Source of the DNA: Methanomicrobiales archaeon HGW-Methanomicrobiales-3
Lineage (GTDB): Archaea; Halobacteriota; Methanomicrobia; Methanomicrobiales; Methanospirillaceae
Length of the DNA stretch: 64,000 nucleotides
Assembly (NCBI GenBank): GCA_002839605.1
Contig: PGYK01000002.1
Span: 124,001-188,000, forward strand
Reading direction: 5' to 3'
In this document: one piece after another, positions 4,827 through 31,084 of the stretch
Layout: each line of letters opens with the position of its first letter
Numbering within the stretch: the first letter of the stretch is position 1
The notes under the pieces: model-generated
The model's input: only the letters and a program-made list of their open reading frames with translations
The model's database searches: none
What the model was told of the DNA's origin: nothing
Translations under genes and position numbers: made by a program

Positions 4827-5570
4827 CTAGATCTCCACGGTCAGCCCGTCTGTTGCCGCGATGAGGCCGGGGAACATCTTCCCGAACTCCTCCTGCACGG
4901 CAGCCCGCTCATCCAGCGTTTTGTACACCTCCGCCCCGAAGTGCACGAGCGCAAGCCGTTTTGCGTGTGCCCGCTCTGCGATCCCGATCGCGTCCTGCGG
5001 GTTTAAGTGCGGCCAGCCGGGGCTCTCCTCGCCGGGCTTCAAGGCGCATTCCGTGATGAACAGGTCGGCGTTCCGGGCAAGGAGGGCAGCATTGTCGCAG
5101 ACGCCGGTGTCCGTGCAGAACGCGATGACCTTCCCGTCGATCTCCACCCGGTAGCCATAGCAGGGGGCGGGGTGGACGAGCGGCCGGCACTCCACGGTGA
5201 AGGGGAGCTGGTGGACGCCCTCGGAGAGTTCGTGCGCCTGCGCCGGGAAGGGGAGCTTGTCGAGCGGGACGGTGAATGGCTCGTTGACAAAAGTTGCGAG
5301 GAGCGCACACCCGCCCGGCAGGGTGTAGATCTTCAGCCCTTTGTGGAACCGGAACTTGACGAGCGTATGGAGCCCGGCGATATGGTCGATGTGGAAGTGG
5401 GAGAGGAAGAGGTATACCGGTTTCTCCTGCGAGATGTACTGGTCGGCCTTTGCGATCCCGTTGCCGGCATCGAAGATGATGTCATACTCCTCTGTCTGCA
5501 CGAGCACGGAGACGGTGTTGCCGGTGGCGGTATCAAACCAGCCGTTGGTTCCAAGGAAGGTCACCTTCAT
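4827..5570 (-). CDS. MBL-fold metallohydrolase (RNase Z-like)
   Basis: MKVTFLGTNGWFDTATGNTVS; SHFHIDHIAGLHTL (HxHxDH); FCTDTGVCDNA; ALVHFGAEV. Confidence 0.88.
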   Translation of the reverse strand: MKVTFLGTNGWFDTATGNTVSVLVQTEEYDIIFDAGNGIAKADQYISQEKPVYLFLSHFHIDHIAGLHTLVKFRFHKGLKIYTLPGGCALLATFVNEPFTVPLDKLPFPAQAHELSEGVHQLPFTVECRPLVHPAPCYGYRVEIDGKVIAFCTDTGVCDNAALLARNADLFITECALKPGEESPGWPHLNPQDAIGIAERAHAKRLALVHFGAEVYKTLDERAAVQEEFGKMFPGLIAATDGLTVEI

Positions 5571-7416: not shown

Positions 7417-7623
7417 CTCTATGGGTGTGCTCCTGTTTATGATTCTTTGCTGCAGGCCAAAAATTCCGTTCATTTCCCGCACGGAAGGGGGGATGCCCGG
7501 ATGGGACCGGATCCTCCTGCTGCTTGCGGATGGCATGAAAAATATATACGCTCCAAAATACAATGGAGATGAGCGGATGGTTCTTTGGGCTGCCATGGCC
7601 CGGGACCCGGCCGGGAGCCGGTT

Positions 7624-8667
7624 ATGCCAGAAGAATTTACCCTTGCCACGTTCAACTGCGAGAACCTCTTTTCGAGGCCCGCCATCTTTGAAGAGAACGA
7701 TGAACGATCCCGGGAGCTCCTGCACGAGGTTGATCTCCTCAAGGCCGAGCTCAAAAAACCGGTCTTTGACAAAGCCGAGATCGCCCGGCTGGAAAAATCC
7801 CTCAAAGGGTTTGCCGTCATCACCGATATCCGCGGCAAGGCTGCTTCTGCCAAAGGTGCGGCGGACTGGCTCGGGTACGTGAGCCTTGTGAAGACCACGC
7901 TCGCGGACGTGACGGCGAGCAACGTTGCCCGGGTGATAGCCGATACCAATGCGGACGTGGTCTGCTTAATCGAGGTCGAGGACCGGCTCACGCTCAAGGG
8001 GTTCCACAACGATATCCTGAACAAACAGTTCCTGAAACCGGCACAGCAGGAGCCGTACCCGTACCTCATGTCCATCCAGGGCAACGACGGCCGGGGGATC
8101 AACGTGGCCGTGATGTCGCGGGTTCCCATCACCTGGATGCAGAGCCATGTCCATGACAGGACGGAGAAGAACACACCGCTCTTCTCCCGCGACTGCCTTG
8201 AAGTGAACCTTGCTCTTGAGAATAAACCCTTACACCTGCTCCTGAACCATTTCAAGTCCATGGGGTACAGTTCCGGAGACGACCCGCAGGGGAGCAAGCG
8301 GCGGCTCGTGCAGAGTACGCGGGTTGCAGAACTGCTCGATTCCCACGATCTGTCGGAGGAGTACGTGGTTGTTGCCGGCGACTTCAACTCGCCCGCGGAC
8401 AGCCCGTCGCTTGCCCCGGTCCTGAAAAAAGCCGGGATGTATAACGTGAACGAGGAACTTCCCGAGGGAAAGCGCGGCACGTACCGGACCGGCAAAGACC
8501 AGCTCGATTATATCGTGGTCTCCGATGCGCTGAAGGAGCAACTCTCCGGGGTCCGGATCGAACGCCGGGGCGTGTACACCGCCCGGGGGGAGAAGTACCC
8601 GACCGTGACGAGCCGGCGCACGGAAGCCTCGGACCATGCGGCGGTCGTGGCAACGTTTGCGGTGTGA
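7624..8667 (+). CDS. Endonuclease/exonuclease/phosphatase family protein
   Basis: LATFNCENLFSRP, VVCLIEVED, VVVAGDFNSP, DQLDYIVVSDAL and ASDHAAVVATF motifs. Confidence 0.87.
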   Translation: MPEEFTLATFNCENLFSRPAIFEENDERSRELLHEVDLLKAELKKPVFDKAEIARLEKSLKGFAVITDIRGKAASAKGAADWLGYVSLVKTTLADVTASNVARVIADTNADVVCLIEVEDRLTLKGFHNDILNKQFLKPAQQEPYPYLMSIQGNDGRGINVAVMSRVPITWMQSHVHDRTEKNTPLFSRDCLEVNLALENKPLHLLLNHFKSMGYSSGDDPQGSKRRLVQSTRVAELLDSHDLSEEYVVVAGDFNSPADSPSLAPVLKKAGMYNVNEELPEGKRGTYRTGKDQLDYIVVSDALKEQLSGVRIERRGVYTARGEKYPTVTSRRTEASDHAAVVATFAV

Positions 8668-11718: not shown

Positions 11719-12222
11719 TTACGCCAGCGCCGGGACGGTGTCCGCCCAGGTCTCGACTTTGGTCCGGATGGCGTCGTCCGAGTACGAGGTGAGGCTCACG
11801 CTCTCCCGGCCGAAGGTGACGAAGTACAGTTCCCCGTTGGGGTCGTGGCACTTGAGGGTGGCCGAGTAGGTCTCGTTTCCGAGATCCCGGACCGCCGTGC
11901 CCCCGTGGGCTGCGGCAAGGCCGGTGTCGGCGAGGAGCGCAGCGGCGCCGGCAGTGAACCCGGCGATGGTGTCGAACTTCGAGGAGTCGGTGCCCACGGT
12001 CTTTGCCTCCGTGTCCTGGTACACGAGTTTGGTGACGTAGTACTCCCTGGTCTTCTCAACGGCCGGGTGGGTGACGCCGGCAGTCATGTATTCCACGCAG
12101 CCGAACGGGTTTGTGGTGAGCACCGATGCGACGATGGCATCGAATGCCGCAACGTCCGTAATCGGGCTTGCGAGTGTTCTGAGTGCGGTCTTGACGGTTG
12201 TTTTCTGGATAAAGTCTGCCAT
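11719..12222 (-). CDS. Hypothetical protein (MADFIQ... family)
   Basis: 167 aa, MADFIQKTTVKTALRTLASPITDVAAFDAIV...; N-terminus is repeated as a fragment at 27355-27438. Confidence 0.7.
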   Translation of the reverse strand: MADFIQKTTVKTALRTLASPITDVAAFDAIVASVLTTNPFGCVEYMTAGVTHPAVEKTREYYVTKLVYQDTEAKTVGTDSSKFDTIAGFTAGAAALLADTGLAAAHGGTAVRDLGNETYSATLKCHDPNGELYFVTFGRESVSLTSYSDDAIRTKVETWADTVPALA

Positions 12223-12776
12223 GTTTTTTCTCAACTCTTTTTGGTTTTGCTTGTTTTGTCCGGCAGGTCCTGCAGAACCTGGCGGGCGGGAAGAATCCAC
12301 GAGGATTCTTCGCGGTCTCCGGGGCCCCTTTGACATACACTTATACGTCGTGAAAGGGCTTAGTCGTGACTGAACCGCTGGTTTTTTTGGAAAACGGCCG
12401 GGTATGCGCAGCGGGTTTGGGGAATTACGTGAATATCGGGGGGCGATTATCCGGGAAAAAACGGGGTACTCGTTGCACCGGTTGCCACATGGGAGTGACC
12501 GGGATCATGGTACCTGTGACCGGCGGGAATTTTTCTTTACTACGATTGGACCAGTGGGGATTTATGCCCCGGCTCTGGTATCCGGAATGGGATATCGGGC
12601 CTGTCCTGGCAACGGAGGGGAACGATACGATCTCATCTCTTAAAAAAAAGAACGTTCCTTTCGGAGATCCTGACACTCTCCATGACATAGTTATGAATAT
12701 TGGGAGAAATACCAATACATACGAATCCGGAACTGACAATGGCACAAAATTATCAGAATTTTTTCCCGGTGCGTCC

Positions 12777-14306
12777 ATGAAGCCGGGCAAGACGCTGCTC
12801 ACCCTCATTTTCATTATTGCGCTCACCAGCTGGTGTCCCGTAAGTTCGACAACGATCCCCTGTTTTATCAACCCGCTCTCACCGGATCACGACCTCGTTA
12901 TCATCGACCGTTACTTTGAATCTGTCCGTTCCGATCCAGAAGAGATCCGGGCATTTTTTTATACAATGCCAAAAGGCGGGGATCTCCACACCCATCTCTC
13001 CGGAAACGTCTATGCTGAGGACATCATCGACATCGCAGCCCGGCACAATCTCGTTGTCGACCCCGCAACCGGGCAACTCTTTGATCCCGCAACCGGACAA
13101 CCCTCTGGTGTGCAGATGCCAGCGTCAGTTGTCCCGGTCACTGCCGCATACAGCAATGCCACCCTGTATGACGCACTGGTTGGATCCTGGTCCATGCGGG
13201 ATTATATTCCGGGCAACCAGTCGGGACATGACCAGTTCTTTGGGACATTCGACCTGATCGACCCGGTAACGTATTACAATGGCGACGTCATAGCCACGAT
13301 CCGCAACCGGGCGGCAGACGAAAATATCCAGTATCTTGAGCTGATGACGTCCCAGACCGACACGGAACAGGTACACGAGATCGTAGCGGCCGTGGACTGG
13401 GATGACAACTTCAGCGTGATGCGAAAGAACCTCCTCGATGCGGGGCTCGATGAGATCATTGACCGGAAGGTGCGGACACATGAATTCTATGACCGGGAAT
13501 CGTGGGAACTCGCGAGCCCGGCGGGAAAGAATGTGACGGTACGGTATATCTATGAGGCCCTCCGGTTTTACCCGAAAAAAGAGGTTTTTGCCAATCTTCT
13601 CCAGGCATTTGAGATCGCCGACCGGTGCCCCGTAGTCGTTGGCATTAACTTAGTGGGCGATGAGGCTGACGATTATTCCCGGACCGATTACCACCTCCAC
13701 ATGGAGATGGTATCGTACCTTGCCTCGGTCTATCCCCAGGTCTCTGTCTCCCACCATGCCGGTGAGCTGACGTACGGTCTCGTCCCAGAAGAAGACCTCC
13801 GGTTCCATATAGCCGATGCGGTGTATACCGGAAAAGCCTCGCGGATAGGCCACGGGGTATCTATCCTTTCCGAAGATGCCTGGCAGGAAACCCTCGCTGA
13901 AATGAAAAAACGGGACATTCCTGTTGAGATTCTCCTGACCAGCAACGAACAGATCCTCTCGATCAGTGGTCATGACCACCCGGTATCGGTGTACCTGGAT
14001 CACCAGGTTCCGGTGGTGATTGCCACCGATGATCCGGGCATTGAGAGAACCGACCTGTCCGGGGAGTTTGTCAAGCTCACGCTCCAGCATCCTGAACTAC
14101 GGTATGAGGATATCCGTGCTATCACCATCAACAGCATCCGGTTCAGTTACCTCCCCGGGCCTGAGAAGGAACTGATGCTTGTGCAGTTTAATGAACGCCT
14201 TGAACCGTTCGAAAGATCGATTGCGAAACGAGAGCGGCCGTTCATGATTACGGCTCTCCCTTCATTCTTTAAGGAACCCTGCCGGGTGCAGGATACCGCC
14301 CTTTGA
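12777..14306 (+). CDS. Secreted adenosine deaminase-like amidohydrolase (ADGF-type)
   Basis: Signal peptide MKPGKTLLTLIFIIALTSWCPVSS; GGDLHTHLSGNVYAEDII, SHHAGE, RIGHG, TSNEQ and ATDDPGI follow adenosine deaminase metal/catalytic motif order. Confidence 0.87.
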   Translation: MKPGKTLLTLIFIIALTSWCPVSSTTIPCFINPLSPDHDLVIIDRYFESVRSDPEEIRAFFYTMPKGGDLHTHLSGNVYAEDIIDIAARHNLVVDPATGQLFDPATGQPSGVQMPASVVPVTAAYSNATLYDALVGSWSMRDYIPGNQSGHDQFFGTFDLIDPVTYYNGDVIATIRNRAADENIQYLELMTSQTDTEQVHEIVAAVDWDDNFSVMRKNLLDAGLDEIIDRKVRTHEFYDRESWELASPAGKNVTVRYIYEALRFYPKKEVFANLLQAFEIADRCPVVVGINLVGDEADDYSRTDYHLHMEMVSYLASVYPQVSVSHHAGELTYGLVPEEDLRFHIADAVYTGKASRIGHGVSILSEDAWQETLAEMKKRDIPVEILLTSNEQILSISGHDHPVSVYLDHQVPVVIATDDPGIERTDLSGEFVKLTLQHPELRYEDIRAITINSIRFSYLPGPEKELMLVQFNERLEPFERSIAKRERPFMITALPSFFKEPCRVQDTAL

Positions 14307-16881: not shown

Positions 16882-19239
16882 ATGATCACTGAGGCTGATA
16901 CCTGCCGAACTTACATCCTGCCCAAACTCTATGATGCAGGCTGGACCAACGAGCAGATCAGCGAACAGAAATCTTTCACCGACGGCCAGATTTTTGTTTC
17001 TGGAAATACAACCCAACGGGGAAAATCAAAACGTGCGGATTATCTCCTACGAATCACCAGGAATTTTCCTATAGCGGTCCTCGAAGCGAAAGCAGCGTAC
17101 AAAAAACCCGGTGACGGTCTTCAGCAGGCCAAAGATTACGCAAAAATTCTCGATCTGAGATTTGCCTACGCAACAAACGGTCATCGCATCATTGAATACG
17201 ACGACATCACTCACCTCGAACGCGAGATCGATAAATTTCCAACCCCTGACGAACTCTGGAAACGCCTTAAACAGGTAGATGGAATTGCGGATGACGTTGG
17301 AGAGAAGATCCTCGAACCATTCCATCATATTGCAGGGAAGACACCCAGGTATTATCAGGAGATAGCGATCAACCGGTCGATCAAGGAGATTTACCGGAAT
17401 CGGAAACGTATCCTCCTCACTCTCGCAACGGGAACCGGGAAGACATTCATAGCATTTCAGATCATCTGGAAGATCTGGAACCAGCGCTGGAACCGGACTG
17501 GAGAACATCGGCGGCCGAAGGTGCTGTATCTCGCTGACCGGAACGTACTGATTGATCAGCCTAAGGATAATGTCTTCACCGACTTTGGCGACGCCCGATG
17601 GAAGATTCAGGGCGAAGCAAACAAGAGTCGCGACCTGTACTTCTCGACATACCAGGCAATCGCCGGCGATGAAAACCGGAAAGGACTGTACAAGGAGTAC
17701 AGCCCGGAATTTTTTGATTTCATTGTCGTGGATGAGTGTCATCGAGGCAGCGCAAAAGATGACGGGAACTGGCGCGAGATCCTCGATTATTTTTCTCCTG
17801 CGGTAAAACTCGGGATGACCGCAACCCCGCTCCGGACCGATAACGTCGATACGTACCAGTATTTCGGCAACCCGATTTACACGTACACGCTCAAGCAGGG
17901 GATCGAGGATGGATTCCTTGCACCGTACCGGGTCCACCGGATTGTGAGTTCAGTTGATGCGACCGGCTGGCGTCCCTACAAAGGTCAGAAAGACAAGTTT
18001 GGTAATGAGATCCCCGGTGGCGTTTATGAGACGCCGGACTTCGAGCGGATCATCTCGTTCCGAAAACGAACCGAAGCGGTTGCCCGTCACCTGTCAGAGT
18101 ACCTGAAAAAAGACGATCGGTTTGCCAAAACGATTGTTTTCTGCGTTGACCAGGAACACGCTGATGAGATGCGACGGGCACTCTCGAATATCAACGCCGA
18201 CCTGATAGGGAAATATCCCTCGTATGTTGTGCGGATCACTTCTGAAGAAGGAGATATTGGCAGAGGATTCCTTGATCAGTTCATGGATATCGAGACGATT
18301 ACCCCGGTCATCGCGACGACATCGAAATTGCTGACAACCGGTGTCGATATCCCGACCTGTAAGAACATCGTGATCTTCACAACGATTAACTCCATGACCG
18401 AGTTCAAACAGATCATCGGGCGAGGGACACGCATCCGGGCGGATTACGATAAGCTGTTCTTCACGATTCTCGACTATACTGGCAGTGCGACGCGGTTATT
18501 TGCGGATCCGGATTTCGACGGGGAACCGATTACGCTCACTGAAGAAGAGATAGATGAGAATGGCGACCCGGTATCTGCAACCGAACCGGTCGTCCAGCCG
18601 GTCCCTGAACCGGACCTCAAGCCCCGGGAAAAATGGAGGCCGAAGATCTCGAATGATGATGAAGGCAGGAACCGGAAGTATTACGTTGATGATCTTCAGG
18701 TTGAGATCACGACAGAGATGGTCTACGAACTCGACAGCAGCGGCAACCGGCTCCGGACCATCGAGTTTACGGATTACACCCGGGAACAGGTGAAGAAATT
18801 ATTCCCGTCGTTCGATATTCTCCGGTCCCACTGGACAACATCGGATGAGCGGAAAGCGATTGTCGATAGTCTCGCGGATCGCGGGATATCGTTCGAGCAT
18901 CTCGTGGAAGTTACGAAACACCCGGAGGCCGATCCTTTCGATCTCCTCTGTCACGTCGCATACAATACACCCATCCGAACCAGGAAGGAACGGGCCGAGA
19001 AGGTAAAGAAAGAGCGGATGGCGTTTTTTGAGAAATATAGTCTGCCCGCCCGGGAGATCTTGCAGGAGATTCTCGACAAATATACCGAGTACGGGTTCGA
19101 GCAGATCGACAACATGAACATTCTCAAAGTCCCACCGATAAGCAGACACGGGAACGTGATGGAGATCGCGCAGGCATTCGGGGGAGTTCCCGAGCTGAAG
19201 AAGGCACTCGCGGATCTCCAGACAATGATTTACGCATAA
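16882..19239 (+). CDS. hsdR: Type I restriction enzyme R subunit
   Basis: LLTLATGTGKTFIAFQI (Walker A), VDECHRGSAKDD, GMTATPLRTDNVDTYQYFG, IIGRGTRIRADYDK. Confidence 0.96.
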   Translation: MITEADTCRTYILPKLYDAGWTNEQISEQKSFTDGQIFVSGNTTQRGKSKRADYLLRITRNFPIAVLEAKAAYKKPGDGLQQAKDYAKILDLRFAYATNGHRIIEYDDITHLEREIDKFPTPDELWKRLKQVDGIADDVGEKILEPFHHIAGKTPRYYQEIAINRSIKEIYRNRKRILLTLATGTGKTFIAFQIIWKIWNQRWNRTGEHRRPKVLYLADRNVLIDQPKDNVFTDFGDARWKIQGEANKSRDLYFSTYQAIAGDENRKGLYKEYSPEFFDFIVVDECHRGSAKDDGNWREILDYFSPAVKLGMTATPLRTDNVDTYQYFGNPIYTYTLKQGIEDGFLAPYRVHRIVSSVDATGWRPYKGQKDKFGNEIPGGVYETPDFERIISFRKRTEAVARHLSEYLKKDDRFAKTIVFCVDQEHADEMRRALSNINADLIGKYPSYVVRITSEEGDIGRGFLDQFMDIETITPVIATTSKLLTTGVDIPTCKNIVIFTTINSMTEFKQIIGRGTRIRADYDKLFFTILDYTGSATRLFADPDFDGEPITLTEEEIDENGDPVSATEPVVQPVPEPDLKPREKWRPKISNDDEGRNRKYYVDDLQVEITTEMVYELDSSGNRLRTIEFTDYTREQVKKLFPSFDILRSHWTTSDERKAIVDSLADRGISFEHLVEVTKHPEADPFDLLCHVAYNTPIRTRKERAEKVKKERMAFFEKYSLPAREILQEILDKYTEYGFEQIDNMNILKVPPISRHGNVMEIAQAFGGVPELKKALADLQTMIYA

Positions 19240-19254
19240 TTCAGGTGATTTTTT

Positions 19255-20811
19255 ACGGTAAAATCAAAGAAGACCGAGACTCCGGTCACGACCGGGCAAC
19301 AGCTGGCGAGCATCGTCAAGGCGTGCCGGGACATCATGCGCAAGGACAAGGGCCTGAACGGGGACCTTGACCGGCTCCCGATGCTGACCTGGATCATGTT
19401 CCTGAAGTTTCTCGATGACATGGAGAAGATCCATGAGACCGAGGCACAACTGAAAGGAAAAACTTTCGTCCCTGCCATCGAGCCACCGTACCGCTGGCGT
19501 GACTGGGCAGAGAAGTCCGATGGCATCACGGGTGACGACCTGATCGCGTTTGTGGACCAGGACGAGGCAATGCGCCCGGATAGCACAAAGGGAAAGGGCC
19601 TGTTCAAGTACCTCGAATCCCTGCATGGAGAAAATGGAGGCGACCGTCGTGATGTGATCGCAACAGTCTTCCGGGGAACCGTGAACCGTATGATCAATGG
19701 GTACCTGCTCCGCGACGTTGTAAATAAGATCAATAACATTCACTTCACCTCTTCGGAAGAAATCCACACTCTTTCGCATCTCTATGAATCTATGCTGAAG
19801 GAGATGCGAGACGCGGCAGGAGATTCCGGCGAGTTCTATACCCCGCGTCCTGTTGTGCAGTTCATTGTCGAAGTCATCGACCCAAAGATCGGCGAAACGA
19901 TACTTGATCCAGCGTGCGGAACCGGTGGTTTCCTTGTCGAGACGTTCGAACATCTGAAGAAACAGGAGAAGACGACCAAGGATCACGAGCGTATCCAAAA
20001 AGGTTCGATTTTCGGCGGTGAAGCAAAGTCATTACCGTATCTCCTTGCGCAGATGAACCTCCTTCTCCACGGGCTTGAATCCCCGAAGATTGATCCGCAG
20101 AATTCTCTGCGGTTCCCTCTCCGTGAGATCGGTGATACTGAACGGGTGGACGTGATCGTGACGAATCCGCCGTTCGGAGGCGAGGAGGAGAAGGGAATTC
20201 TTGGGAATTTCCCGGAGGACAAACAGACCTCCGAGACAACGCTCCTATTCCTACAACTCATAATGAGGAAACTTAAGCGCAGTGCCTCCGGGAAGAAGGG
20301 CGGGCGTTGCGGGATGGTCGTACCGAATGGAATGCTCTTTGGCGATGGCATCGGTGCTCGAATAAAGGAAGATCTTCTCCGGGATTTTAACCTTCATACG
20401 ATCGTCCGGCTGCCGAAGGGAGTCTTTTCTCCCTACACTGATATCGAAACAAATCTTCTGTTCTTTGATCATGGCGATCCAACAAAAGAAATCTGGTATT
20501 ATCAGGTACCACTTCCCGAAGGACGAAAGACGTACACCAAAACGAAACCAATGAAGTTTGAAGAATACGCACCGGTGCTCGCATGGTGGAAGAATCGAGC
20601 CGAGAGCGAGCAGGCTTGGAAAGTTCCTGTCGATGCTGTTCTTGAAAACAATTTCAACCTCGATATCAAGAATCCGAATTCGGCAAAGATGGATGAGCAC
20701 CGCGAACCCGAAGAGATTGTGGTCGTGATTGTCGAGAAGGAACAGCGGATCATCACGCTGATGCAAGAGATCCAGATGGAGATAGGAAAGGGTCGGGGTA
20801 ATGCAGAGTAA
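19255..20811 (+). CDS. hsdM: Type I restriction-modification DNA methyltransferase M subunit
   Basis: GEFYTPRPVVQFIVEVIDPKIGETILDPACGTGGFLVETF; NPPFGG. Conserved N-terminus KSKKTETPVTTGQQLASIVKACRDIM lies in frame upstream of the first ATG (19336); candidate ACG start at 19255. Confidence 0.92.
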   Translation, partial: TVKSKKTETPVTTGQQLASIVKACRDIMRKDKGLNGDLDRLPMLTWIMFLKFLDDMEKIHETEAQLKGKTFVPAIEPPYRWRDWAEKSDGITGDDLIAFVDQDEAMRPDSTKGKGLFKYLESLHGENGGDRRDVIATVFRGTVNRMINGYLLRDVVNKINNIHFTSSEEIHTLSHLYESMLKEMRDAAGDSGEFYTPRPVVQFIVEVIDPKIGETILDPACGTGGFLVETFEHLKKQEKTTKDHERIQKGSIFGGEAKSLPYLLAQMNLLLHGLESPKIDPQNSLRFPLREIGDTERVDVIVTNPPFGGEEEKGILGNFPEDKQTSETTLLFLQLIMRKLKRSASGKKGGRCGMVVPNGMLFGDGIGARIKEDLLRDFNLHTIVRLPKGVFSPYTDIETNLLFFDHGDPTKEIWYYQVPLPEGRKTYTKTKPMKFEEYAPVLAWWKNRAESEQAWKVPVDAVLENNFNLDIKNPNSAKMDEHREPEEIVVVIVEKEQRIITLMQEIQMEIGKGRGNAE

Positions 20812-21970
20812 TGTCCCGAGGGTGAAACTCGGTGAGGTACTCACTCATCGAGGAGATTTCATCACCGTTAATGATTTGCAATTGTACAGACGTGTGACCG
20901 CACAACTCCATGCAAAGGGGATTATTCTCCGTGACGAGATTGACGGGTCACTAATCAAAACAAAGAAACAAAGGGTGTGTAGAGCGGGCGATTTTCTTGT
21001 TGCGGAGATTGATGCAAAACTTGGGGGTTTTGGGATAGTTCCCCCATATCTCGAAGGATCGATTGTCAGTTCTCACTATTTTCTATTCGAAATAGATGAA
21101 ACGAAACTTGAAAGAGAATATCTGGATTTTTTTATCAGGACTGAGGAGTTTCAGAAACAGATTACCGCACGAGGTTCAACAAATTATGCAGCGATCAGAC
21201 CTCCCGATGTTTTACAACTGGAAATTCCTCTTCCTTCGGTTAAAGAACAGCGGCGAATTGTTGCGACGCTTGAAAGGTTGTTTAATGATGTTAATGCGGC
21301 AAGAAAAGAGCGAGCCGCATCTATTAAAGAATTGGAAACACTCCAATCCCAAATAAAAAATACTGCATTTCCTAAACCTCACACAACGACTGTCGGAGAA
21401 TTTGTCAGATTCCAAACCGGTTATGCGTTCAAGAGTGAGTGGTTCAGTGAGGAAGGAATCCGATTAGTACGGAATGCAAACATAGGACATGGCAATATCG
21501 ATTGGTCTGACACAATGCGAATCCCTGAATCACTCCGAAAACAATTCGGAAATTTTGAACTTCGAATGGGGGATATCCTGGTCTCATTGGATCGTCCCAT
21601 TATCTCAACAGGTGTTAAAGTTGCAAAGGTATCAGAAGCTGATCTTCCCAGCCTTTTGTTACAGCGCGTTGCTCGGGCTCAATTCGACGAGAATAAGGTA
21701 GATGTAAATTATTTTTTCCACTGGCTGACGTCGCCGAATTTTATTACTGCAATCAATCCTGGTCGTAGCAGCGGAGTTCCGCATATCTCCCATAAAGAAA
21801 TTGAGAGGATTCCTTTTTCGCTACCACCATTCAAAGAGCAGCGCCGTATCGTCGCCCGTCTCGATCGATTGCAGGACAAGGTTGATGAGGTGAAACGGCT
21901 GCAGGCTGAGACAGAGCGGGAGATGGTGGCGCTGGTACCGGCGGTGCTGGCGAAGGCGTTTGGGAATTGA
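20801..21970 (+). CDS. hsdS: Type I restriction-modification specificity subunit
   Basis: Two target-recognition regions each followed by LPSVKEQRRIVATLERLF / LPPFKEQRRIVARLDRLQDKV. Confidence 0.93.
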   Translation: MQSNVPRVKLGEVLTHRGDFITVNDLQLYRRVTAQLHAKGIILRDEIDGSLIKTKKQRVCRAGDFLVAEIDAKLGGFGIVPPYLEGSIVSSHYFLFEIDETKLEREYLDFFIRTEEFQKQITARGSTNYAAIRPPDVLQLEIPLPSVKEQRRIVATLERLFNDVNAARKERAASIKELETLQSQIKNTAFPKPHTTTVGEFVRFQTGYAFKSEWFSEEGIRLVRNANIGHGNIDWSDTMRIPESLRKQFGNFELRMGDILVSLDRPIISTGVKVAKVSEADLPSLLLQRVARAQFDENKVDVNYFFHWLTSPNFITAINPGRSSGVPHISHKEIERIPFSLPPFKEQRRIVARLDRLQDKVDEVKRLQAETEREMVALVPAVLAKAFGN

Positions 21971-21977
21971 TATTTAA

Positions 21978-23615
21978 TTATTTAAGAAATTCACTTTCAA
22001 GAAAATCTAATAAATTGGCAGAACGGGTTAGAATTTCCCGATAAATGTCTTGATATCTCTTTTTACCGATTCCCCACTTTTTCGCCACCGATTCATACTC
22101 TCTACCTTTCCTATGGCTTGTTGATGTAGATTTTAAACTTTGAAGGTCCCTCAAAAATTGGATATGACTCTCAAAGTTTTTCACTCCTTTTTCGGATAGG
22201 AAGCGATAAAATTTAGAAATCCCTCTCTCGTCTTGTTCCTTCGATGATAATTGTTCTCCAAGTTTTGCTTCGTTTATTGAATCAATGATTACCTTGGTAA
22301 TCGCTAATACCAGTTCGTCAAATTCTGACTGACTTTCTTTGAGAGGAACACGAATTTTATTAAAGAAGTGACTATCGCTTTTACCGAGTGGAAGAAAAAG
22401 ATCCCACCCAAGTTTCTTCATCCACGATTCTTGGAATCTCTCGAATTTTCCTTTGAAAATGAGATCCTCCATTGAGGGGTCAGTCCATTCAGCTGCAAAA
22501 CCTCTTTTAAATGCAACCTCACTGAAGCCTCCATCCGGTTTTACGTTGAAACTTCTCCAATACCTTTGTTCAGATATTGAAAGATGCCCAAGATCTCCGA
22601 GCATTACAATAACGTATTTTTCATGATTATTATCTAACCTCAACGACCACAATCCCCCACAAAATAGATTCCCGTCGTGAATGGAATATTTTTCAGTATT
22701 TGCGTAATATTTTTCCAGTACTTCACGTTTAAAAAAAACTGGTGTTACATAATTTGGTTTTCCTTTGTTTTTTCCAAAAAAATTCGCCAATTTTTCTTCA
22801 TCACAGGAAAATAAAATTTCTTTTCCTTCTGAATCAACACCAATGATAAATTCCAGGTATTCATCGTGTTTGACCCCACACGGATCAAATGTCTCTGGAT
22901 CAAAATCATCCAAACCTGAAATTATTTTTTTTCCTAATAGTCTGCTAAAAATAACTGTATCATCACGTTTACGAGGATCGTCAGAAATACTAATTTCGCA
23001 AGTTACAAAATTTGTTTGTTTAATATCTCGAATAATCTCATCGCCAAGTTCTGAAAATTTTCCTGATAAAAACCGATCGACATTGAAGTACAAAACCAAA
23101 TTTGCGTTCTTTACAGCAAGGTATTCTTTAAGATATTTTGCATTGATCTGAATCAATTCATCAGAAATTCTGATAACATCCTCTTCTTCCCCATCATCGA
23201 GAATAATTATGAATTTCTTTTCATGTTCATCGAAATATAGGTTATATAAATGCCGAAATTCTTCAGACAGATCAAAAAATGCCTTTTTTATTCCATGAAA
23301 GTGCCGTTGGATCAGTATTGGTTCAATTCCATCCTCTCGTCCATATCGTAAATATTTGGCATCAGTCATCTTCCCTCGACCATAACTAATAATGTGCCCA
23401 GGGTAAAAGCTTGCAATATCGATTTCCCATTCATATTGTGATAAAATTTGTTCAGTTGAAGTTTTTGGGGCGATAGCTGAAAAAAGGAAGAAATCATCAT
23501 CAGTATCAGGGATTTTATCGTGTAAATAAAGGGGAATCCAGGCATCGGTTCCTAATTTTTCTTGAATGAATCGATACCAATCATTCATATGAGGATCAAT
23601 TTTTTGCATTGTCAT
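21978..23615 (-). CDS. Uncharacterised 545-aa protein in defence island
   Basis: Long clean ORF convergent with hsdS; C-terminal GREYESVAKKWGIGKKRYQDIYREIL looks HTH-like. Confidence 0.75.
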   Translation of the reverse strand: MTMQKIDPHMNDWYRFIQEKLGTDAWIPLYLHDKIPDTDDDFFLFSAIAPKTSTEQILSQYEWEIDIASFYPGHIISYGRGKMTDAKYLRYGREDGIEPILIQRHFHGIKKAFFDLSEEFRHLYNLYFDEHEKKFIIILDDGEEEDVIRISDELIQINAKYLKEYLAVKNANLVLYFNVDRFLSGKFSELGDEIIRDIKQTNFVTCEISISDDPRKRDDTVIFSRLLGKKIISGLDDFDPETFDPCGVKHDEYLEFIIGVDSEGKEILFSCDEEKLANFFGKNKGKPNYVTPVFFKREVLEKYYANTEKYSIHDGNLFCGGLWSLRLDNNHEKYVIVMLGDLGHLSISEQRYWRSFNVKPDGGFSEVAFKRGFAAEWTDPSMEDLIFKGKFERFQESWMKKLGWDLFLPLGKSDSHFFNKIRVPLKESQSEFDELVLAITKVIIDSINEAKLGEQLSSKEQDERGISKFYRFLSEKGVKNFESHIQFLRDLQSLKSTSTSHRKGREYESVAKKWGIGKKRYQDIYREILTRSANLLDFLESEFLK

Positions 23616-23954: not shown

Positions 23955-24707
23955 ATGACCCGGGCCTCACTCTTCAAACTCCGTGTTCACATTGTACCTG
24001 TCGGGTTTGAAATTGACCGGGTGATCGAGCCACTCATCCGGTTTAAGGCAGACAAGGTTTGGTTGATCATCGAAGAAAATATCGAGACCAGCGATGCGAA
24101 TTACCACTACCAGGAAATTAAACGCCGATTAAGCGAGATCGATATGAAATTCGATGAACGGAGATGCCAGTTCAGGGCTCTGTTCGAATTATTAAATGAA
24201 TACCGGATTATCATCGAGCAAGAACATGAACACGAGATTTTTATCAACGTCTCTACCGGAAACAAGATCGAGGCGATCGCCGGCATGATGGCGGCGATGA
24301 TGTTTCATTCTGATAAAATCAGCATAACTCCTTATTATGCGGTCCCGAAAAATTACGAAATAAAACCCAAAGAGGGCGAACAGTTTACCAGCGGTTACAA
24401 AGATGTAATCCAGTTGCCGAATTACAGAATTGAACGTCCGAAAGAACATCTCGTGGCCGCGCTGAAAATAATTAAAGAGAGCGGGATAGTAAGCAAGAAG
24501 GAGCTCATTGAGATATTTCTATCAAAGAAGCTGATCGTAATCGAGAAAATTAATCATTCTGAGTCTGCCAAGCATTCCCAGTTGAATAAGAAGTTTTTAG
24601 AACCCTTGAACGAGAAAAAATTCATCGAAATTGAAGGTAAGGGGAAAGCAGCCCGTATAAAAATCTCTATTGACGGAGAGAATATATTGAAGTTTTTACC
24701 GAAATAA
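23955..24707 (+). CDS. CARF-domain winged-helix regulator (HFX_2341/DUF6293-like, Csa3-related)
   Basis: VHIVPVGFEIDRVIEPLIRFKADKVWLI; FINVSTGNKIEAIAGMMAAMMF; wHTH-type C-terminus LKIIKESGIVSKKELIEIFL. Confidence 0.82.
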   Translation: MTRASLFKLRVHIVPVGFEIDRVIEPLIRFKADKVWLIIEENIETSDANYHYQEIKRRLSEIDMKFDERRCQFRALFELLNEYRIIIEQEHEHEIFINVSTGNKIEAIAGMMAAMMFHSDKISITPYYAVPKNYEIKPKEGEQFTSGYKDVIQLPNYRIERPKEHLVAALKIIKESGIVSKKELIEIFLSKKLIVIEKINHSESAKHSQLNKKFLEPLNEKKFIEIEGKGKAARIKISIDGENILKFLPK

Positions 24708-24709
24708 TC

Positions 24710-26008
24710 TTACAAATTTCCTAAAAAATCCATGAGGTCCGGTGCCCTCTGGGGGACAACAATGTTGTCCATGATATCCGGATTTTCCTGAATTGCGGCC
24801 TTTGTGTTGAGATATTTCTTTACCGATTTTGTCTCGCTGATTGTCTTCTTTGTCCGTTCCACTTCGAGATGCATCAGGGTGCTATTCAGGAACTGGTTAA
24901 CCGCGTTGTCCTTCAATAACGTAGAGTCTGAAATCGGCAATGACTGAGGATAATGATCAAGATTCAGGTAATAATAGGAATCAGGGTCGAAGATGCGGTG
25001 TTTGTGAAAAGTGTGAGCTTCAAGATAAGCGTCCTTAGTTGCGAAGTTATTTTTACTGGCCCGTTCTGCAAGTGCATCGTCATTGTATAAATTACCTAAA
25101 AATGGTCGCCATGGTTCCCGGTCGGTCCCTATGAAATCTGCCCCTAAAAATTGAGTTAGGATGTCGGAAGCTGCAGCTTTATTTTCTTGAACATGTGGCA
25201 GAAGTTCCTTTTTAATATGGGAGAAATATAGGGTAGCGTTGGAATTTCCCATAATCTTGTCAATGAGATGAATTATTGTTTTCAGTCGGGATGAATATGT
25301 ATCATTACAAGACTTGGCATCGAAGTCGATCCAGATATTAGTGTAACCCTGAGTTTTATAATGAGACAGGATCGCCTCTAGATTTTTCTTGGATAATTCA
25401 ATATGCAGGGGAGCAAAAATCGGCCGGTTATTGCGGTCCATTAGGATTTTGATGCTCTGATCGACAAAGGCAAGATACTGGGTTGTATTGATATCGTCCT
25501 TTTTTTCAAGCCGGACATCAGGACATAACACAAACGCCTTCGATGCTGAATGAATATAATCGAGCAGGCATATGTAGCTGTTTTCATCAAGACCCGGAAA
25601 TGTTTTTTTTGTCTCGCCGGAGCCTACTGAAAATTCTTTAAATGGATTTTTTGGGAAGACTAGGGATACCGTTGTCAATGCGGAATTCCACATGCGCTTT
25701 TTTATATTGAAAAAAGAGTCGAGACCGTGAACCCGGTCGGGGCCTGCCTCATTCAGCAGATGGTAGAGAGAATTCCAGCTGCGGATATCAGTGATAAATT
25801 TCTGGTATTCCAGGAATGGTTGTGCTATCATTCCGGAAACCGGAGAGACATCCTCAACGTTAATCCCGTTCCCGGCCAGAACCTTGAACGGTGTCTCTAT
25901 CTTCCGCCGGAGATGTTCAATCTCGATCTGTTTGATGTAATAATCGCCGTCTTTTGCGTGCGTGATCGGATCAATGGAAATATGGGGATCAAACTCACGC
26001 GCTGACAT
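24710..26008 (-). CDS. Uncharacterised 432-aa protein of three-gene cassette (possible alpha/beta-barrel)
   Basis: MSAREFDPHISIDPITHAKDGDYYIKQIEIEHLRRKIETPFKVLAGNG...; overlaps the start of the upstream gene by 14 bp. No confident family. Confidence 0.75.
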   Translation of the reverse strand: MSAREFDPHISIDPITHAKDGDYYIKQIEIEHLRRKIETPFKVLAGNGINVEDVSPVSGMIAQPFLEYQKFITDIRSWNSLYHLLNEAGPDRVHGLDSFFNIKKRMWNSALTTVSLVFPKNPFKEFSVGSGETKKTFPGLDENSYICLLDYIHSASKAFVLCPDVRLEKKDDINTTQYLAFVDQSIKILMDRNNRPIFAPLHIELSKKNLEAILSHYKTQGYTNIWIDFDAKSCNDTYSSRLKTIIHLIDKIMGNSNATLYFSHIKKELLPHVQENKAAASDILTQFLGADFIGTDREPWRPFLGNLYNDDALAERASKNNFATKDAYLEAHTFHKHRIFDPDSYYYLNLDHYPQSLPISDSTLLKDNAVNQFLNSTLMHLEVERTKKTISETKSVKKYLNTKAAIQENPDIMDNIVVPQRAPDLMDFLGNL

Positions 26009-26573
26009 GATAGTTCCTAATATATTCGATCGCAGGCATAAGGATTGTCCTCAAAATCTCGGGATCGATGCTGCACGGGCGTTGTTTTTCCCCGCTTATA
26101 AGCACATTCTCAATTTTCAGGAGAAATTCGAGTGCCTGGGCCGGGGTAATCTTCTGATCTTCACAACAGGCAACCTGAACAAATCCGATTGTTCCTTTCA
26201 CACGGGGTGCAAGGTTCCTGAAATGTTTTTTCGCAAACTTATTGGGGCGGCGGTCATCGAGAATCAGGAAGCGGAGTCTGCCCTGTGCATCCAGCATATA
26301 CCCGATACCGATTGCTTCATATTCCCCGTCATTGATATGACGCGGGTTTCTGCCAAAAAAGGGTTTGATGAGCTGATAATAGTCAAAATTGTACGTTGTA
26401 ACGCTGCGGGTAAAATCCCCGTCATTCGTGAGTCGTTCGGGTAACTCACCTAAGATTTTGTCACCGAGGAAGAAGGGATATGCCGAAAGAAACCGGAAAA
26501 GGATATCCTTGCGTTTGATATCACAGGCACAACAGCTGTAAAACGTTGAATCAGCGGCGACAGAATCTCTCAT
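25995..26573 (-). CDS. PIN-like nuclease domain protein
   Basis: Acidic residues spaced as in PIN folds: MRDSVAADSTFYSCCACDI...NDGEYEAIGIGYML...FLILDDRRPNKFAKKHF...GTIGFVQVA. Confidence 0.65.
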   Translation of the reverse strand: MRDSVAADSTFYSCCACDIKRKDILFRFLSAYPFFLGDKILGELPERLTNDGDFTRSVTTYNFDYYQLIKPFFGRNPRHINDGEYEAIGIGYMLDAQGRLRFLILDDRRPNKFAKKHFRNLAPRVKGTIGFVQVACCEDQKITPAQALEFLLKIENVLISGEKQRPCSIDPEILRTILMPAIEYIRNYHVSA

Positions 26574-26574
26574 T

Positions 26575-27150
26575 TCAGTTGCTCGCCATGAGGTCTTCGT
26601 ACCGCTCTGCGTCGATATATCCCTTCTTTACAAGATTATCTGCCAGTTTCTTTTTTGATTTCTGGATGCCGTCAAAAACGTTTGATTTTTTCTGATATTC
26701 GGGGTACGTATCATAAATGAGAAGAAGCAATTCTTCGGGACTGAGCTTGTCATAGAGTTCGCGGACCATCTTCATGGCTGCGAGGATCGGGCCCATCTGC
26801 GGATTTGCGGAACTTGCAGCATAGAGACGCTTGTACTCGGACCTGCCTTGGGTCGTCAGCTCTACATATCCCCCGGTAAGGGTATCATACCGTGCAGGTG
26901 GAATGTACGTCCAGCAGTTAATGAGGTAAAAGGGATTCCTGATAATCTGTTCAATCTCTTCTGAATACGGGCCCCGGTAATGAGAGATGAATCTCATGAA
27001 TTTCTTGATATCGGGATGGAAATTCCAGATGAAGAATGCTTCCTTTTCCAGATGGAGGATAGAGATTTTCTGGTCCTCGGCACCCAGAAGTAAGAGGATG
27101 AGATGTTCCAGCGCCCTGGACCTCGTGTCTGCTGCGTTTCTCTGTTGCAT
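26575..27150 (-). CDS. SocA/Panacea-like protein (putative antitoxin or adaptor)
   Basis: ISILHLEKEAFFIWNFHPDIKKFMRFISHYRGPYSEEIEQII...YDKLSPEELLLLIYDTYPEYQKKS; 1-bp gap to downstream PIN-like gene. Confidence 0.5.
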   Translation of the reverse strand: MQQRNAADTRSRALEHLILLLLGAEDQKISILHLEKEAFFIWNFHPDIKKFMRFISHYRGPYSEEIEQIIRNPFYLINCWTYIPPARYDTLTGGYVELTTQGRSEYKRLYAASSANPQMGPILAAMKMVRELYDKLSPEELLLLIYDTYPEYQKKSNVFDGIQKSKKKLADNLVKKGYIDAERYEDLMASN

Positions 27151-27354
27151 TCTTTATCATCACGAATTTTTCGTCGAATTCTAGTGAAATGTATCCATAT
27201 GGGTGTTTAAACAGTTTATCATAAACCCGGCACCGCATGGAGCGAAATTGATTTTTTCCTGTTTTACCAGTGGATCCGCTCCCTTCAGTAAAACCTAAGC
27301 CCCGCCTCCCACAGAGTACTATTCAGCCCAAGGGCCCAAGGGCGGGAGAAACGT

Positions 27355-28284: not shown

Positions 28285-30846
28285 TCATCCATCCGCAGGA
28301 AGCACATCCTGGTATCCTCCGTTTCGCTCTGACTCAACCCTCTCCTCATGATTCTTCCACCGGATTCCGGACCAGAACCGTTCATTCCCCGACCTCCCGC
28401 CTTCAAGTACGCCCCGCTCTTTGAGTGCCAGGGCGATCCTGCGTCCCGATGGAACATGCCGGACACCTTCTTCTTCACACCATTTCACAAACAATTCCTT
28501 AAACGCAGACCTCGACAACGACGCCCCGGCTTCAAGCACGCACTCCGTTGCAAGGAACAGCCCCACCGTGTCGCTCACCGTCCGCAGGTTCGCCGTTGCC
28601 TGCGAGACCTTCTTTGACTGCACGAGCCGGCTCCCGTTTGCGTAATACCGCTTGAGCCCTTCAAGGCACCAGTTCAGGATGCCCGGCGACTCCGCGAGCA
28701 GTTTTGCCGCAATGTCCGGGTCGCACTTCTCCTCCGGGATCTGGACCGAGAACGGCACCATCCAGATCCGGCGCCAGATCCCGTCATCCGTGCCGGGGAT
28801 GACCGGCTCGTGGTTGGTGGTCATCCAGATCTTGGCAACCGGCGTGAACTCGAACTCGTTCTCGTAGAGTTTCCGCACCGTGATGACATACTCGCCCGTG
28901 AGCTGCTTGATGATAGCCTCGTCCATCCGGGCGCCCTCCGCCCCCTCGGCAGCCGTGGCAAGCCGGGCCCCGGCAAGGCGTGCAAGGTCCGACCGGGCGT
29001 TCTCGAAGCGCCGGGCCATCAGGGAGTCGGCGGCGATGTTGACCGCGTAATCAGAAAAGATCCGGGCCAGCACCTCGATGGTCTTGGACTTCCCGTTCCG
29101 GCCCCGGCCATAAAGGATGAACATCACCTGCCGGGGGTTGGTGCCAAGCAGCGTGTACCCGCACATGGACTGGAAGCCATAGATGGAGTCCGCGTCGCCT
29201 GCGAAGATCAGGTCAAGGTGGGCGAGCCACTGGGGGCACTCCGCCTTCGGGTCGAAGGTGACCGCCGCCATCTTCGTGAGCATGTCCTCCATCCGGTGCT
29301 CGCGGAAGGTCATCGTGGGGAGTTCGAGGGTGCCGTTATAACAGTTGAAGAGATCCGGCCGGGCATCGAACCCGTCCGGCTGGACCGGGATGTGCGGGGC
29401 GGCGGAGTCGATCATCGCTTTCCTTGCGTGCAGGCTCTCGGAGATGATCGCCCACCGGGAGAGTGCCCGCGAGCGGTCGGCAGTCGGGGCCGTGGCAGCC
29501 TCCCGGTGGATCGAGCGGGCAACGCTGGTCGCAATCAGGAGCATCCGCCCGGCATCGTCCCGCACCCAGACCCGGCCGTTCCAGAGGTACCAGGCATTGA
29601 AGGCCGCACAGTACCGCACCCGGTCGCCGAAACCGGCGATCAGCCGCTCGGCATTCCCGGCATCGGTGAGGGGGTACTCGTGCGGTTCCCCGTCGGCGGA
29701 ATCCGTCGGGCCCAAAGGCCCGTAGGATAAACCTGCCGGCAGTTTATTCGCATCCGGAACCGCGGGTCCGGCCCGCTCTGCTGCGGCTTTTGCCCTCGCT
29801 CGTTCACGACGGCCGGCGTCCAGCCGCTCCTCCGCGGTCCCGTACCGGTCCCGCAGCTCCTTCCAGCGCTGCTTCCCGCCGCCGCAGGAGGCGTGATGGC
29901 AGCCGGCATGGATGGCGCCGCTCGCAAACTGGATCGCGTACGCCCCGTCATTGTGGGCGGAGGAGAAGGGGCACGATTCCAGGAGATAGATCCTCCCGTC
30001 CAGGTAGGGCTTTTCGGACCGGACCGGGATGCTATGTTCCCGGAGCCAGACAGACAGGTCAAGCCTGTTCTTCCCCGCCGTTGCCTCCGCAGGAGGCCCG
30101 TCATACGGGGGGAGTGCCATGCCCAGCCGTTCGAGCAGTTCCGGGCCGGCAACCTCCAGCCGGTCCGGCACCGAGAGGATCTTACTCCTCCGGTGCGGCC
30201 GGTCGGGCGTGCTGTCGCCCTTGCGGGAGACCGTGCCGTAGAGTTTCCAGATCCGGCCGGCATTATGGTTTGCCGCATCCACGGTCACCGACCGGTCCGA
30301 GAAGATTGCATCGAGAACCCGGAGCCCCCGCTTCACGAGCGCGAGCGATGCCGCATCGTTGGGCAGGTCGATCCGGTAGAGAAGGTGCGCCCCGTTCCCC
30401 GAGGCAGCCCGCACCGGCTCCGGAAAACCGAGCTCCGCGAGCCATGCACCGACTGCGTCGGCCATCGCAAGTGCCGCCGCGTGCTCCGCGTCCGTTGACG
30501 AGATCCCGGCAGGCCGGACCGGGTCGATATCGACCGGGAACCAGCGGCGCCGGAGGATATCCGCATCGCCCGTTGTCGCATCGGTGCGGGAGAGGCGCAT
30601 CCGGATCCGGTTCGCCCGCCGGGACAACAGGGACGGGTTCACTTCGTTCAGCGTCACGTAGATCCCGTGCACCGAAGGGTCGGTATCGAGCGCCTCGCAG
30701 GAGCGGGCAAGGGCCGCAGGGTCCGTGAAGTACCCGCTGTGCACGGCACCCGAAGATAACGCCCGCACCTCCACGACATTCCCGGCGCCTGCCAGCAGGT
30801 CAGCGGCAGCAGCAATCTCCGGCATTGCGGGGGCCGGATCAGGCAT
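28285..30846 (-). CDS. D5/P4-type phage/plasmid primase-helicase
   Basis: N-terminal archaeo-eukaryotic primase-like region (RRRWFPVDIDPVRP...SGNGAHLLYRIDLPND); D5 region TFREHRMEDMLTKMAAVTFDPKAECP; SF3 helicase FILYGRGRNGKSKTIEVLARIFSDYA, KIWMTTNHEPVIPGTDDGIWRRIWMVPF. Confidence 0.92.
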   Translation of the reverse strand: MPDPAPAMPEIAAAADLLAGAGNVVEVRALSSGAVHSGYFTDPAALARSCEALDTDPSVHGIYVTLNEVNPSLLSRRANRIRMRLSRTDATTGDADILRRRWFPVDIDPVRPAGISSTDAEHAAALAMADAVGAWLAELGFPEPVRAASGNGAHLLYRIDLPNDAASLALVKRGLRVLDAIFSDRSVTVDAANHNAGRIWKLYGTVSRKGDSTPDRPHRRSKILSVPDRLEVAGPELLERLGMALPPYDGPPAEATAGKNRLDLSVWLREHSIPVRSEKPYLDGRIYLLESCPFSSAHNDGAYAIQFASGAIHAGCHHASCGGGKQRWKELRDRYGTAEERLDAGRRERARAKAAAERAGPAVPDANKLPAGLSYGPLGPTDSADGEPHEYPLTDAGNAERLIAGFGDRVRYCAAFNAWYLWNGRVWVRDDAGRMLLIATSVARSIHREAATAPTADRSRALSRWAIISESLHARKAMIDSAAPHIPVQPDGFDARPDLFNCYNGTLELPTMTFREHRMEDMLTKMAAVTFDPKAECPQWLAHLDLIFAGDADSIYGFQSMCGYTLLGTNPRQVMFILYGRGRNGKSKTIEVLARIFSDYAVNIAADSLMARRFENARSDLARLAGARLATAAEGAEGARMDEAIIKQLTGEYVITVRKLYENEFEFTPVAKIWMTTNHEPVIPGTDDGIWRRIWMVPFSVQIPEEKCDPDIAAKLLAESPGILNWCLEGLKRYYANGSRLVQSKKVSQATANLRTVSDTVGLFLATECVLEAGASLSRSAFKELFVKWCEEEGVRHVPSGRRIALALKERGVLEGGRSGNERFWSGIRWKNHEERVESERNGGYQDVLPADG

Positions 30847-31084
30847 GATCCTCCGCCTCATCCGGTAACGCCTGCCCGGGCAACGGGGACTCACCGGGGA
30901 AGTCCGGCCGGGTACTGCGGGCATCCCGTGCCCGGCACGTGTACTTGATCCGGTACTGGTGTTCTGCGATCCGGACAACCGAGATCCGGAAGAGCTTCCC
31001 GCCCCGCTTCTTCACGCCATTCGCTATGGCGGAGGCGATCATGAAGAGCGGCACATCCGGATCATAGACTTTCCGCCGGGTCAT
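30839..31084 (-). CDS. Small hypothetical protein of the D5 module
   Basis: MTRRKVYDPDVPLFMIASAIANGVKKRGGKLFRISVVRIAEHQYRIKYTCRAR; overlaps both neighbours by a few nt. Confidence 0.65.
   Translation of the reverse strand: MTRRKVYDPDVPLFMIASAIANGVKKRGGKLFRISVVRIAEHQYRIKYTCRARDARSTRPDFPGESPLPGQALPDEAEDHA

Follow-up and report, generated by a model that had tools for sequence, protein, structure and literature searches.

Gene organization of the cassette

The stretch of DNA analysed (the window) comprised 64,000 nt of a contig of the Methanomicrobiales archaeon HGW-Methanomicrobiales-3. It contained a cassette of three minus-strand genes, designated A, B and C (Table 1), with a gap of 1 bp between A and B and an overlap of 14 bp between B and C; the coordinates, strands and lengths all agreed with the first-pass annotation, which had described the genes as translationally coupled. 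A type I restriction-modification (RM) system, hsdRMS, lay beside the cassette, as also claimed there, in the opposite orientation. Next to the RM genes was a gene for a CARF-HTH regulator, convergent with gene C. This regulator, listed earlier as a neighbour, was present but was not conserved with the trio at other loci; it was therefore rejected as a part of the module, and its position here is incidental. The gene for a 545-aa protein, which had no match in Pfam, NCBIfam or PADLOC, was rejected on the same ground. The large D5_N/DUF5906 primase-helicase-type protein encoded upstream of the cassette had related proteins near the cassettes of loci L024 and L074, which suggests a mobile element.

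Two short palindromes before gene A fit a candidate operator. At the place of the first, GTTTATGATAAAC, locus L017 carried ATTTATCATAAAT, in which the symmetry was kept through paired changes, while the second, TGTTTAAACA, was kept in L016 and L017.

Table 1. Features of the cassette and its surroundings in the window
Feature	Position (nt)	Strand	Product	Remarks
hsdR	16882-19239	+		type I RM; neighbour, outside cassette; similarity to PADLOC-matched HsdR of L022
hsdM	19336-20811	+		type I RM; neighbour, outside cassette; PADLOC
hsdS	20801-21970	+		type I RM; neighbour, outside cassette; PADLOC
545-aa protein gene	21978-23615	-	545 aa	between hsdS and the CARF-HTH gene
CARF-HTH regulator gene	23955-24707			adjoins C
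gene C	24710-26008	-	432 aa	predicted TGT-fold TIM barrel
gene B	25995-26573	-	192 aa	predicted DUF3368-type PIN-domain nuclease, predicted RNase toxin
gene A	26575-27150	-	191 aa	N-terminal region remotely Panacea/DarG-like; predicted antitoxin
palindrome TGTTTAAACA	27204-27213			upstream of A; candidate operator
palindrome GTTTATGATAAAC	27214-27226			upstream of A; candidate operator
D5_N/DUF5906 primase-helicase-type protein gene	28285-30978	-		upstream of cassette

Predicted products of the three genes

A profile of the A family matched the DarG chain 7yk3_B in the PDB (5.7e-5), and the A protein of the window matched DarG in PADLOC (4e-4). The suggestion that A is SocA/Panacea-like held to the extent of this remote DarG similarity, but Pfam Panacea (PF13274) was matched by only 2 of 29 A relatives, with a best E of 0.03 that did not reach the curated cut-off. 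A UPF0175 domain was located at the C-terminus of 13 of the 29 relatives (Pfam, 6.4e-11); no UPF0175 match was detectable in the window's own A. The protein is thus predicted to be a remote Panacea/DarG-like antitoxin.

Pfam DUF3368 was matched by 9 of 26 B relatives (best 9e-8). The B protein of the window alone had no match in Pfam, NCBIfam or PADLOC, and its assignment was made through relatives, fold and profiles: the acidic set of PIN nucleases was intact (D8, E43, E84 and D106/D107), and named PIN proteins ranked first and fourth, with weak scores (E about 0.3), in a fold search with the predicted structure (pLDDT 88.5). The PIN-like character proposed for B was borne out by these data, and B is predicted to be a DUF3368-type PIN nuclease acting as an RNase toxin. 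The gene was broken or truncated, with A kept, at L019, L076, L078, L163 and L164, the last two lying on chromosome-sized contigs, and B without A was not seen among the loci found. Such repeated decay of B with retention of A fits the pattern of a toxin and its antitoxin.

The C protein had no match in Pfam, NCBIfam or PADLOC, and the Pfam model of tRNA-guanine transglycosylase (TGT) was matched by none of the family members scanned. With the predicted structure (11 sequences; pLDDT 77.7, pTM 0.81), a Foldseek search against the PDB returned TGT for all of the top 11 matches (best 3.4e-7), the match being partial (TM 0.50); a fold search of BFVD gave nothing at E below 0.001. Since the hhalign comparison of C with TGT in local mode was, by itself, modest (P about 0.015), shuffled and other-barrel controls were included. 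Profile alignment with TGT sequences from the same genomes scored 27.5 local and 22.4 global, versus means of 14.2 local (maximum 23.6) and 2.5 global (maximum 10.9) for column-shuffled nulls, and 11-16 local and 1-3 global for C against two other TIM-barrel families, the DeoC control set possibly including some wrong-strand ORFs. The fold search and the profile comparison with its controls together predict a TIM barrel of TGT type for C, and the earlier guess of an alpha/beta barrel was correct.

The profile alignment paired the N-terminal TP, last-strand GxD and C-terminal N-x6-E motifs of C with those of TGT. It also placed Gly294 of the window C at the catalytic Asp of TGT, the residue (Asp280 in Z. 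mobilis TGT) that attacks tRNA (PMC6165067). Gly occupied this position in 38 of the 39 aligned C proteins, two of which were nearly identical; according to this mapping, the Asp nucleophile of TGT is replaced by Gly. No conserved Cys was found among the 39 sequences, and the CxCxxC...H zinc site was thus lacking. Altered catalytic residues are known from the TGT paralogue QTRT2, which can serve as a partner subunit (PMC6165067). Six residues of C (E67, D282, Y347, N375, E382 and K403) were nearly invariant in the same 39 sequences. Together with the TGT fold and with the TGT-type DpdA, the DNA-modifying protein of the Dpd system (PMC12839542), they would agree with C being an enzyme that is active through a remodelled catalytic site and exchanges, for example, bases or nucleotides in RNA or DNA, while B would cut the unmodified substrate, the two forming a modification-restriction pair that acts on RNA or DNA; this is quite improbable, however, given the Gly at the nucleophile position, the unconserved zinc-site Cys and the failure of Pfam TGT to match the members scanned.

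Distribution and genomic context

Relatives of the trio were sought with searches by class and by phylum, with a single scan of a genome collection and through the calling of neighbourhoods. A-B-C was present in Methanoregula, related methanogens and further lineages of the same phylum, and in genomes of the phylum to which the Nitrososphaerota locus L031 belongs, where 15 of 250 had C matches; the trio also occurred on one Cloacimonadota contig (L028), a 3.2-kb MAG contig that could be mis-binned. Gene A adjoined C in 38 of the 39 aligned C homologues, usually with B, the exception being L083, where C was solitary. B was recognizably intact at about 33 of these 39 loci and missing or degenerate at about five A-C loci (L073, L076, L078, L172 and L175). 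Strong A matches numbered 27 in 394 genomes, with C in the same genome for 23; A was solitary at L161, L162 and L165. The pairwise distances of A, B and C were correlated over 28 loci (r = 0.88-0.92; permuted maximum 0.29). Several loci had C transcribed away from A-B, so that the link between the genes exceeds mere translational coupling. B homologues were not found in the viral and plasmid collections, nor C homologues in the viral, plasmid and phage collections.

Conserved synteny elsewhere, set beforehand as a test of the cassette, was thus found: the set recurs in dozens of genomes with correlated divergence, which shows that the arrangement is not due to chance, and A-B-C is a real conserved unit. 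An ordinary two-part VapBC-like pair, stabilizing an RM island or a mobile element and carrying C as an accessory passenger with no role in B action, would account for A-B alone matching the known UPF0175-PIN pair and for the D5-type primase genes adjoining the window cassette and near L024 and L074. We consider it unlikely, because C is kept with A in all but one of the aligned cases, diverges in step with A and B as closely as these do with each other, and has conserved residues of its own.

The cassette was situated inside hsd clusters at L018, L022, L023, L072 and L079 and between HmaA and HmaB at L071, and further cassettes adjoined DUF1156 or Eco57I-type methylases. Methylase-based RM genes were present in 9 of 25 cassette regions compared with 1 of 40 control regions of comparable length (Fisher p about 5e-4), a count that is partly circular since some reference proteins were taken from cassette loci. 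About one third of the loci lay in or beside methylase-based restriction loci, and about two thirds had no RM neighbour in the stretch examined. RNase guards embedded in RM systems exist, for example PrrC (PMC12707154). With PrrC and PARIS as precedents, the fact that cassettes of several lineages are inserted in hsd and Hma operons could indicate a dedicated guardian that monitors the restriction complex and fires, as PrrC does, upon binding of an antirestriction protein; this is distinctly unlikely, as many loci have no recognized RM neighbour, which also argues that RM is not the sole trigger. With regard to the earlier proposal of a new toxin-antitoxin or anti-phage system, the toxin-antitoxin part is well supported by genomics, whereas an anti-phage role is no more than hinted at by RM proximity.

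Various other genes were observed in relatives. At L023, an nSTAND3 NTPase that also matched an Mrr-type nuclease (11942-14260, minus strand) was encoded between the cassette and hsdR, and at L164 short repetitive proteins, ERFGERFGE and GEKLGEKL (4991-5281 and 7506-7808, plus strand), were encoded near hsdR and hsdS. In L105 and L106, a further member of the TGT family, of about 345 aa and distinct from archaeosine TGT, was followed by a 279-aa gene. A Csa2/DevR CRISPR gene was located downstream of the cassette at L169 (10099-11418, plus strand), and related genes for 266-267-aa proteins directly preceded A at L066 (2595-3398, minus strand; no Pfam match) and L067 (1686-2486, plus strand).

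Proposed mode of action and comparison with known systems

To the reading of A-B-C as a three-part toxin-antitoxin module, with the TGT-fold C as a binding or sensing subunit and with a backup function at RM loci, we give about an even chance. In the scheme that we infer, A would bind and silence B, the PIN ribonuclease, and would probably repress the operon; C, of TGT-fold descent without the catalytic nucleophile, would bind or sense nucleic acid, most likely tRNA, and target or license B. At loci beside or inside RM operons, the module would act as a backup in phage defence: when restriction is inhibited or failing, the hold of A would be lost, B would cut RNA, and growth would stop. A more specific and rather doubtful version makes C a pseudo-transglycosylase: it would hold on to particular tRNAs and hand them to B, and the whole would be a new type of tRNA-directed defence effector in which a modification enzyme put to another use chooses the target or senses altered tRNA.

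The toxin-antitoxin core is of a known kind, whereas the TGT-derived third part is new to such modules. No description of the three-part module was found in the literature, although one could have been missed among preprints and many subscription papers, which were outside the search. With this module, a widespread archaeal toxin-antitoxin type gains a conserved third component of unexpected descent, a TGT-fold protein in which the catalytic Asp is predicted to be replaced, and becomes tied to restriction systems. If the proposed scheme is true, a gene family that lacks annotation would be accounted for, archaea would offer an example of RM backup that is open to testing, and a tRNA-modification fold would have been recruited to immunity.

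UPF0175 (COG2886)-PIN (DUF3368/COG2405) type II pairs, a described archaeal toxin-antitoxin pair (PMC2701414; PMC6929052), are known mostly from archaea and cyanobacteria and likewise have the PIN toxin gene directly after the UPF0175-bearing antitoxin gene. The cassette differs in that its antitoxin also has a Panacea/DarG-like region, in the fixed TGT-fold third gene, and in that the window's own A lacks detectable UPF0175. Panacea (DUF4065) pairs similarly consist of a small antitoxin-like protein beside a toxin-like gene, and A resembles the DarG chain 7yk3_B; however, A is below the Pfam Panacea cut-off, and the cassette has a fixed partner B instead of swapped toxins, plus a conserved third gene. 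The RM guards PrrC and PARIS share an RNase-type effector gene beside or inside restriction operons, but the trio has no recognized ABC ATPase, HEPN or TOPRIM parts, and an RM neighbour accompanies it at only about one third of loci. With the TGTs (TGT, archaeosine TGT, QTRT1/QTRT2 and DpdA), C appears to share the TIM-barrel fold, the N-terminal TP and the C-terminal N-x6-E. It differs from them by the predicted Gly in place of the Asp nucleophile, the unconserved zinc Cys, the unmatched Pfam TGT and its genetic fixation to a predicted PIN toxin. QTRT2 provides a precedent of a non-catalytic TGT partner.
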